Source: Pseudomonadota bacterium (GTDB lineage Bacteria > Pseudomonadota > Alphaproteobacteria > Reyranellales > Reyranellaceae). Taken from it: DNA of 64,000 nt. The notes below the pieces were generated by a model. The model did not search any database. It saw only the letters and a program-made list of their open reading frames with translations, and had not been told where the DNA came from. The translations under genes and the position numbers were made by a program. This document shows, in pieces, positions 15,609 through 28,091 of this stretch. Position 1 is the first letter of the stretch. The number at the start of each line of letters is the position of its first letter. The stretch spans positions 1-64,000 of the forward strand of contig JAFEFF010000194.1 in NCBI GenBank assembly GCA_018240745.1, given 5' to 3'.

Positions 15609-15639
15609 CTTCCCCTTGCCGGAGTCCGGCAAGGGGAAG
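15609..15639. terminator. Hairpin between convergent MFS and secB
   Basis: CTTCCCCTTGCCGG and CCGGCAAGGGGAAG (14 bp, perfect) with loop AGT, starting 3 bp after the MFS stop. It probably ends the arsenic-cluster transcript. The U-tract is poor on both strands, so efficiency as an intrinsic terminator is uncertain. Confidence 0.6.
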
Positions 15640-18238: not shown

Positions 18239-18248
18239 CATTCTTTCT

Positions 18249-18273
18249 CCTCCCTGCGCTGGGCGCAGGGAGG
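18249..18273. terminator. Hairpin between convergent dioxygenase and lipoprotein genes
   Basis: CCTCCCTGCGC, loop TGG, GCGCAGGGAGG: an 11-bp perfect stem between two convergent stop codons. A-rich rather than U-rich sequence follows on the plus strand, so it is only a probable transcript end. Confidence 0.55.
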
Positions 18274-18287
18274 AAAATCGCGTCTGA

Positions 18288-24465: not shown

Positions 24466-24541
24466 GAGCGGCCAGTCTAGCCCGCTTCGGCGCGCCGTGT
24501 AGGATGCGCCGCACGACTCGAAAAAGGGGAGAGGATCGACC

Positions 24542-25315
24542 ATGGACCTGAAGATTGCCGGCAAGACGGTTCTCATCACCGGCGGCAGCCGCGGCATCGG
24601 CTATGCCTGCGCCGAGGCGTTCGCGGCCGAGGGCTGCGCCGTGCACATCGCCTCGCGCTCCAGGGAATCGCTGGAGAGCGCGCGCGACAGGATTCGCAGC
24701 CGCCACAACGTGCCGGTCGAGATCCATGTCGCCGACTTCTCCAGGGGCGACACGGTGCGCAGCGTGGTCGAGGCGGTCGGTCACGCCGACATCCTGGTCA
24801 ACAATGCCGGCGCCATCCCGCGCGGCGACATCTTCGCCATGACCGAACCCAAGTGGCGCGAGGCGTGGGAGCTCAAGATGTTCGGCTACGTCAACGCCAC
24901 GCGCGCGATGCTGGAAAAGATGTACGCGCGCAAGAAAGGCGTGGTGGTGAACGTCATCGGCCTGGCCGGGGAGAGCTTCAACTACGACTACGTCGCCGGT
25001 ACCACGGCCAATGCCGGCCTGATGGCCTTCACACGCGCGGTCGGCTCCAAGAGTGTCGATCACGGCGTGCGGGTGGTGGCGATCAACCCGCCCGGCACCC
25101 GCACCGACCGCATGACGACCCTGCTGCGCAGCCAGGCCCAGCAGCAGTGGGGCGATCCCGAGCGCTGGCCCGAGCTCACCAAGCACATGCCGTTCGGCCG
25201 CCCGGCCGAGCCGACCGAGGTGGCCGATCTCGCGGTTTTCCTGGCGTCGGACCGCGCCAGCTATATCAGCGGCGTGGTGATGACCCTCGACGCCGGGCAG
25301 GCCGCGCGGCACTAG
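24542..25315 (+). CDS. SDR-family protein lacking the YxxxK lysine
   Basis: Short-chain dehydrogenase/reductase, 257 residues. The cofactor motif TGGSRGIG (13-20) and NNAG (87-90) are intact. The catalytic region, however, reads NVIGLAGESFNYDYVAGTTA: the usual Ser is not in its normal place, and four residues after either tyrosine (148 or 150) there is Ala or Thr in place of Lys. GTTANAGL replaces the usual SKAAL. Related proteins with this GTTANA signature exist, so it looks like a stable subfamily, not a broken copy. AGGGGAGAGG precedes the ATG. Confidence 0.85.
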   Translation: MDLKIAGKTVLITGGSRGIGYACAEAFAAEGCAVHIASRSRESLESARDRIRSRHNVPVEIHVADFSRGDTVRSVVEAVGHADILVNNAGAIPRGDIFAMTEPKWREAWELKMFGYVNATRAMLEKMYARKKGVVVNVIGLAGESFNYDYVAGTTANAGLMAFTRAVGSKSVDHGVRVVAINPPGTRTDRMTTLLRSQAQQQWGDPERWPELTKHMPFGRPAEPTEVADLAVFLASDRASYISGVVMTLDAGQAARH

Positions 25316-25356
25316 GGGATGCCTCAGCGCCGCGCGGCCCGGTTCTGGAGGGGGCG

Positions 25357-26025
25357 TCAGAACCGGTAGTTGAAGCCGACGCGAACCAGGTTGCCGATCG
25401 AGCGTTCGCTGATCGACGTCGTGGCCGGCGTCGACAGCGGCGTGTCCGGCGTGCCGATCCACAGGTACTCGAGCTTGGCCGACCAGCGGTCGTTGATATG
25501 ACCTTCGACGCCGCCGCCGAAGGTGTAGGTCCAGAAGTTGTTCGAGTTGTCGAACGAGCCGAACTGCGAGTCGAAGCCCGCCAGCCGCTGCTGGCCCCAC
25601 ACCGCGCCGCCGGTGAGGTACGGCATCACCGAGCCGACCGGATAGCCGACGCGGGCGCGGAAGGTCGAGAACCACGGGATGCTCTGGGTCGCGCTGATGA
25701 ACGACGGCCCGGCGCCGCCGGTGACGCCGCCGGTCAGGGTCGAGCCCTGGAAATCGATCTCACCGCCCAGCAGCACGGGACCGACCAGGTAATTGTAGCC
25801 CGCCTGCGCACCGCCGACGAAGCCGCTGCTGGTGCCGTTGAAGCCGCCGCCGGTGTTGTTCTCGACGATCGAGGCCGAGGTCGAGCTCCACAGGCCGCCG
25901 GCGTTGAGACCGGCGTAGAAGCCTTCCCATTGGCTGTTGCTCTGGGCCTGCGCCGCGAACGGTATGGCCGTCGTCGCCGCAAGGATCGCCGCAGCCGCGG
26001 CGATCGAGGTCCGTTTGGATGTCAT
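25357..26025 (-). CDS. Outer-membrane beta-barrel protein (porin-like, OmpA-type small barrel)
   Basis: A 222-residue exported protein. The signal peptide (to about residue 28, ...PFAAQAQ) is followed by WEGFYAGLNAGG and a series of alternating amphipathic strands with Gly/aromatic ends (GFVGGAQAGYNYLVG, VMPYLTGGAVWG, KLEYLWIG). It closes with RVGFNYRF, whose terminal Phe is the classical outer-membrane insertion signal. Likely an eight-stranded barrel, common as abundant surface proteins of Rhizobiales and relatives. Its mRNA carries a hairpin covering the ribosome-binding site. Confidence 0.88.
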   Translation of the reverse strand: MTSKRTSIAAAAAILAATTAIPFAAQAQSNSQWEGFYAGLNAGGLWSSTSASIVENNTGGGFNGTSSGFVGGAQAGYNYLVGPVLLGGEIDFQGSTLTGGVTGGAGPSFISATQSIPWFSTFRARVGYPVGSVMPYLTGGAVWGQQRLAGFDSQFGSFDNSNNFWTYTFGGGVEGHINDRWSAKLEYLWIGTPDTPLSTPATTSISERSIGNLVRVGFNYRF

Positions 26026-26031
26026 CGCTTA

Positions 26032-26077
26032 CACTCCACGCATTGAAGAGAGGGGACGTCGGTGGGTGCGTGGAGTG
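26032..26077 (-). promoter_or_regulatory. 5'-UTR hairpin sequestering the Shine-Dalgarno of the barrel gene
   Basis: On the minus strand CACTCCACGCA (26077-26067) pairs perfectly with TGCGTGGAGTG (26042-26032), leaving a 24-nt loop. The only good ribosome-binding sequence, GGAG (26037-26034, 8 nt before the ATG at 26025), is inside the 3' arm. The mRNA would therefore fold to hide its ribosome-binding site, suggesting translational control by temperature, a small RNA or a protein. The pairing is directly visible; the regulation is inferred. Confidence 0.6.
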
Positions 26078-26276
26078 AGCCGCCCAAACGCGGCGCTCGC
26101 GGGGCATCACTGGGGAAGCCGCGTGACCGCCATTTGCAGTGTCAGTCCTGCACCAGTCAGGCAAATGGGACCGGGTCATGCGGGTGGCACCGCCGATTGC
26201 AGCCAGCGATCGCTTGCCGCGGCGTGATCCACAGTGCAGCAGGGGCGTCGCGACGGTACCTTTGCGCACCTCGCCA

Positions 26277-28091
<1,815 letters not shown>

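Follow-up and report, generated by a model that had tools for sequence, protein, structure and literature searches.

A hairpin over the ribosome-binding site of an outer-membrane barrel gene in a Reyranella-type alphaproteobacterium, and a fixed-length upstream module of which its 5' arm may form the end

The 5'-UTR of Yersinia pseudotuberculosis ompA is described as an RNA thermometer: its Shine-Dalgarno (SD) sequence lies in an imperfect duplex that leaves an A bulged, and it melts between 25 and 37 °C (PMC8245352). In Brucella, BvrR boxes lie upstream of omp25, for which starts at -131 and -82 are reported (PMC10538546), and alphaproteobacterial outer-membrane genes are named as ChvI or CenR targets (PMC9731502 and PMC9275681). 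Like the Yersinia leader, the locus studied here has a stem that covers a GGAG SD ahead of an outer-membrane gene; unlike that leader, its SD pairing is perfect and predicted to be stable to 70 °C, resembling the locked form reported in the same paper. As with omp25 and the ChvI and CenR targets, an alphaproteobacterial outer-membrane gene is preceded by conserved upstream blocks, and the omp25 starts make a long leader plausible here. However, compared by eye with the ChvI (TTGC-N3-GCAA) and CenR (TGA-N8-TGA) motifs as quoted in these papers, the conserved upstream module described below keeps neither as a feature, and both were set aside as candidate sites; only one sequence (G023) happens to show a TGA-N8-TGA. 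The open-licence literature yielded nothing on this leader and no study of such regulation in the genus.

The DNA analysed, referred to as the window, is a 64-kb stretch whose host is a Reyranella-type alphaproteobacterium; named relatives of the barrel locus include several Reyranella records. The gene downstream of the hairpin had been taken for an outer-membrane barrel in an earlier note on this DNA, and its Pfam match bears this out (Table 1). By eye the N terminus of the protein is signal-peptide-like, and its match to the porin OmpA model is weak, under the model's cut-off. The gene and recQ diverge, and on its other side it converges with a short-chain dehydrogenase gene.

Table 1. Features of the barrel gene and of the region upstream of it (window coordinates)
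Feature	Position	Strand	Basis
Outer-membrane beta-barrel protein gene, 222 aa	25357..26025	-	ORF; PF13505 E 4.8e-14
Hairpin 3' arm TGCGTGGAGTG, carries SD	26032..26042	-	inverted-repeat scan
SD, GGAG	26034..26037	-	only GGAG within 100 nt upstream, 8 nt before ATG
Hairpin loop, 24 nt; 5' portion is the invariant CCCACCGA	26043..26066	-	inverted-repeat scan and alignment
Stretch of 121 columns free of gaps across 9 sequences; includes the conserved module	26051..26171	-	alignment
ACCCACCGA, invariant in 9/9 sequences	26059..26067	-	alignment
Hairpin 5' arm CACTCCACGCA	26067..26077	-	TCC invariant in 9/9 sequences
Small upstream hairpin GCCGC-N6-GCGGC; 4/5 pairs invariant in 9/9	26079..26094	-	fold and alignment
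Conserved motif, ACTGRTG, 7 nt, RTCACAGC-like half (GACACTGC in the window)	26136..26157	-	alignment
recQ, divergent neighbour; start codon position provisional	26277..28091	+	TIGR01389 E 6.4e-226

The two arms are perfect reverse complements on the minus strand, forming a stem of 11 bp that ends 6 nt before the ATG (26025-26023), and both this geometry and the enclosure of the only GGAG in the 3' arm are as the earlier note had claimed. A bare 11-bp inverted repeat is not rare in this G+C-rich window: a scan for perfect stems (11 bp or longer, loop 3-60 nt) finds 8, where three first-order Markov sequences gave 5, 7 and 3. Since such stems are common, the interest of this hairpin rests on its position over the SD. 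Elsewhere in the window, at 2396-2466, 18 bp are perfectly paired around a 35-nt loop that itself holds CCCGCC/GGCGGG repeats. This inverted repeat lies directly after an apparent stop codon and may be a large hairpin of the terminator or repeat type. Perfect stems with 3-nt loops occur at 15609-15639 (14 bp) and 18248-18274 (12 bp).

A fold of the transcript from 26095 to 26000, proposed as a check along with the hairpin, gave -38.4 kcal/mol (z -3.54, with 1 of 200 shuffles equally good), a leader more stable than its shuffles. The predicted probability that GGAG is unpaired at 37 °C is 0.000-0.001 across three fold windows, and freeing it would cost 10.8 kcal/mol, a value reached or exceeded by 3 of 200 shuffles of the upstream letters. 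Fourteen genes with a recognisable SD were scored, out of 48 ORFs of the window whose starts and SDs were picked by a crude rule, and a probability of 0.001 was seen in two: the barrel gene and a start around 4438 on the plus strand, whose SD is likewise strongly occluded in this crude scan. These predictions make SD occlusion plausible in the window species, if the leader is transcribed.

A protein search of 61 genomes gave 14 barrel-protein loci at 55% identity or more, and two added records (L035 and L038) brought the comparison to 16 loci. The upstream element is present in ten of these (G000, G023, G015, G003, G002, G072, G010, G001, G036 and G027) and missing from six: G012 and five sister sequences, whose conserved leader is another one. 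The upstream letters of G036 and G027 are identical and were counted once, and a second G027 copy was left out of the alignment, giving nine distinct sequences, all from one genus; the two G027 copies, on contigs C104 and C125 of one assembly, score equally and are likely assembly redundancy. Among 65 genus genomes, a covariance model of the element matched the same ten strongly (E <= 1.1e-12) and gave no other match below E 0.003; 11 other genomes of the order gave two weak matches and no strong one. No barrel protein was seen among the longest ORFs at four of the weak model matches (L087, L088, L089 and L099). Weak sequence matches at query positions 42-62 were examined in G061 and G030 and dismissed as chance, as both lie in coding sequence that we take to be rpsP. 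The element always precedes the barrel gene, in one copy per locus.

Across the nine sequences RNAalifold places both hairpins in the consensus, the SD stem with 8 bp. The core TCC/GGA never varies and is uninformative on covariation. Both-sided changes are seen at 2 of 16 pairs, one each (in G036 and G010), a score reached by 38 of 500 column shuffles, and they stand beside one-sided wobble changes and many broken cells: in the nearest relative, G023, two T residues face each other and break one pair, the first stem pair is lost in G072 and G010, and the second in G010 and G036. Paired cells make up 87.4% against 85.0 +/- 0.8 in shuffled columns (3 of 500 as high), in a test that relatedness inflates. 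When the arms were exchanged between species, own arms averaged -15.29 kcal/mol and permuted arms -14.91 +/- 0.45 (fraction 0.20, or 0.16 without G023), so that the two arms of one species are matched no better than arms taken from different species. Covariation of the stem arms thus appears weak or absent, and the compensatory changes in homologues on which the earlier note had staked its reading seem largely missing.

Occlusion itself is more widely predicted. GGAG is mostly covered in all nine element sequences (P unpaired 0.001-0.25, -100/+40), against 0.51-0.83 in the five sister sequences, where the values depend on the fold window and some fall to 0.01-0.05. The cost of freeing it (-60/+20) is 4.0-10.8 kcal/mol with the element, 0.6-2.4 in the sisters and 4.5 in G012. 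In G003, G001 and G015 this cost tends to lie above shuffles (reached by 10, 11 and 17 of 200); no clear excess is seen in G023 (94), G002 (136), G036 (40), G010 (167) and G072 (43). With 40 or more of the 200 shuffles matching the cost in these five of the nine species, base composition suffices for occlusion there. The claim that the hairpin hides the SD is supported as a prediction for the window sequence; conserved riboregulation does not emerge from these comparisons.

What the relatives do preserve is spacing. ACTGRTG and the anti-SD bases AYTCC stand 81 nt apart in all nine sequences, as would be expected of the boxes of a DNA promoter or operator module, whereas the distance from AYTCC to GGAG takes seven values (39, 37, 46, 43, 40, 40, 44, 41 and 43 nt), and that from GGAG to ATG is 10-12 nt. 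Because the first distance is fixed while the second drifts, the 5' arm is anchored to the upstream module and not to the ribosome-binding site, and, as judged from the alignment, seems to be part of that rigid module. The fixed spacing also makes a transcription start inside or after the hairpin a serious possibility. Pairwise identity in the gap-free stretch is only 0.5-0.8 in most 10-column bins, the strongest invariance lying in GCCGC-N6-GCGGC, TCC and ACCCACCGA, the last almost entirely loop and not stem.

In our judgement there is an even chance that the recQ-omp intergenic region holds a cis-regulatory module (about 26157-26059), confined to this lineage and present in single copy, whose downstream end is the 5' arm. 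Such a module would act mainly as an upstream-anchored control block, more probably a promoter or operator than a sensor that folds together with the SD. The C-rich end of the module (ACTCC..CACCCACC) has an anti-SD-like composition, so any transcribed part would tend to mask the SD; the window species has a shorter leader and differs at a few bases, which may have turned this tendency into an 11-bp perfect stem. If transcribed there, that stem would lower translation constantly, with no response to temperature. The fixed 81 nt, the 121 gap-free columns, arms that pair no better than swapped ones and the single copy before the barrel gene count for the module. Against it count the RNAalifold consensus hairpins, the 3 of 500 paired-cell shuffles, the covering of GGAG in 9/9 sequences and the lack of a sigma-70-type promoter match, as judged by an E. 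coli consensus that is perhaps unsuited to this organism. Furthermore, if transcription starts upstream of 26077 the stem is in the mRNA whatever its history, and constant spacing could equally belong to a structured RNA of fixed length. Folding of the whole stretch by RNAalifold gave an unfavourable covariation term (+0.56 kcal/mol), yet 7 of 26 pairs show both-sided change.

No known operator could be named for the module, and several candidates for its content were rejected. A sigma-54 site picked out by eye (GG-N10-GC, 26081-26068) is not kept in G002, G072, G010 or G036. The module alignment has no coding signature in six frames; for an upstream ORF (ATGCC.., reading MPRERRFSAAHSTHPP..), changes are not enriched at third positions in any frame, G001 lacks its ATG, and it is in frame with the barrel gene only in some species. 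With up to one mismatch, the upstream motif was found at the barrel locus alone in five of seven genomes and nowhere in G000 and G023, where the copy has diverged. Besides the element itself, pieces of the module at up to three mismatches occur in five extra places, all at three mismatches, against seven for a backward-pattern control, and at this stringency a regulon was discarded, with no convincing second site in the seven genomes or by the covariance model. The comparison shows how an SD-hiding hairpin of one genome can mislead, as its relatives preserve a fixed-spacing upstream module and not the stem. If transcribed, the module would make a compact leader for an outer-membrane protein, open to testing.

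The next most probable explanation, possible though rather doubtful, is a riboregulated leader, in which the stem closes the SD until a partner acting in trans (a small RNA, an RNA-binding protein or a chaperone) opens it at the ACCCACCGA loop or at the 5' arm. The strong occlusion predicted in the window would fit this, as would the invariance of the loop letters and of the anti-SD TCC and the higher opening cost in element sequences than in their sisters. It is weakened by the swap test, by occlusion not clearly beyond composition in five of nine species and by the anchoring of the 5' arm upstream instead of to the SD. Nor did exact matches to an 11-nt loop antisense in four genomes give any sign of a shared second copy: G023 and G015 have only the element itself, and G000 and G003 three and one further places. 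A small RNA pairing perfectly over all 11 nt was accordingly rejected as partner in these genomes; a shorter seed would escape this search.

Pure chance complementarity, with no effect, is unlikely. The number of such stems in the window (8 against 3-7 in random sequence) and the T-T mismatch in the nearest relative speak for it, but it must contend with the z of -3.54, the 3 of 200 upstream shuffles and the place of the 5' arm inside a conserved block. There is only a slight prospect of a clade-specific two-part leader, in which tandem anti-SDs (ACTCCAC and CACCCACC) would compete for one SD strand and a trans partner would select between burying the SD perfectly and a bulged-A fold. Slighter still is the case for hairpins that would mainly protect the mRNA of an abundant outer-membrane protein against decay. 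E. coli ompA is an outer-membrane gene with such stabilising leader hairpins, and this leader has two adjacent stable stems, but protection calls for neither a covered SD nor invariant loop letters.

The weakest reading is the RNA thermometer, one of two possibilities in the earlier note, in which warming would melt the stem and free the SD. The stem is predicted to cover the SD, the Yersinia precedent concerns an outer-membrane gene, and in G003, G015 and G072 the predicted fold bulges the A of GGAG, as is reported for ompA there (PMC8245352). The isolated window hairpin, however, retains -10.1 kcal/mol at 60 °C (-17.3 at 37 °C), and with folding parameters extrapolated in temperature GGAG is predicted to open at no more than 0.009 from 20 to 70 °C, so that the stem is predicted to lack marginal stability and matches the perfectly paired variant described as locked shut in the same paper. 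Warming to 50 °C raises the value little in most relatives; the largest rise, in G023, is from 0.001 (20 °C) to 0.114 (50 °C; -100/+40). Rfam gave 0 matches (E up to 1 over 24500-28000; gathering cut-off over the whole window). On its predicted stability a thermometer is thus very unlikely, and it was rejected.

The intergenic regions of related genomes hold other conserved blocks. A GATTCAYG-N4-GTTCGC-like motif, by eye absent from the window, occurs between recQ and omp in G003, G002, G072, G010 and the sister clade, at a distance from the barrel gene that differs between clades. The other leader of the sister clade (L011, L012, L013, L014 and L038) has a mean column identity of 85% over five sequences and carries a GGCACGA..TCGTGCC-type hairpin with apparent G-U variants and an GGGGGAGTTCAAC box before the SD.
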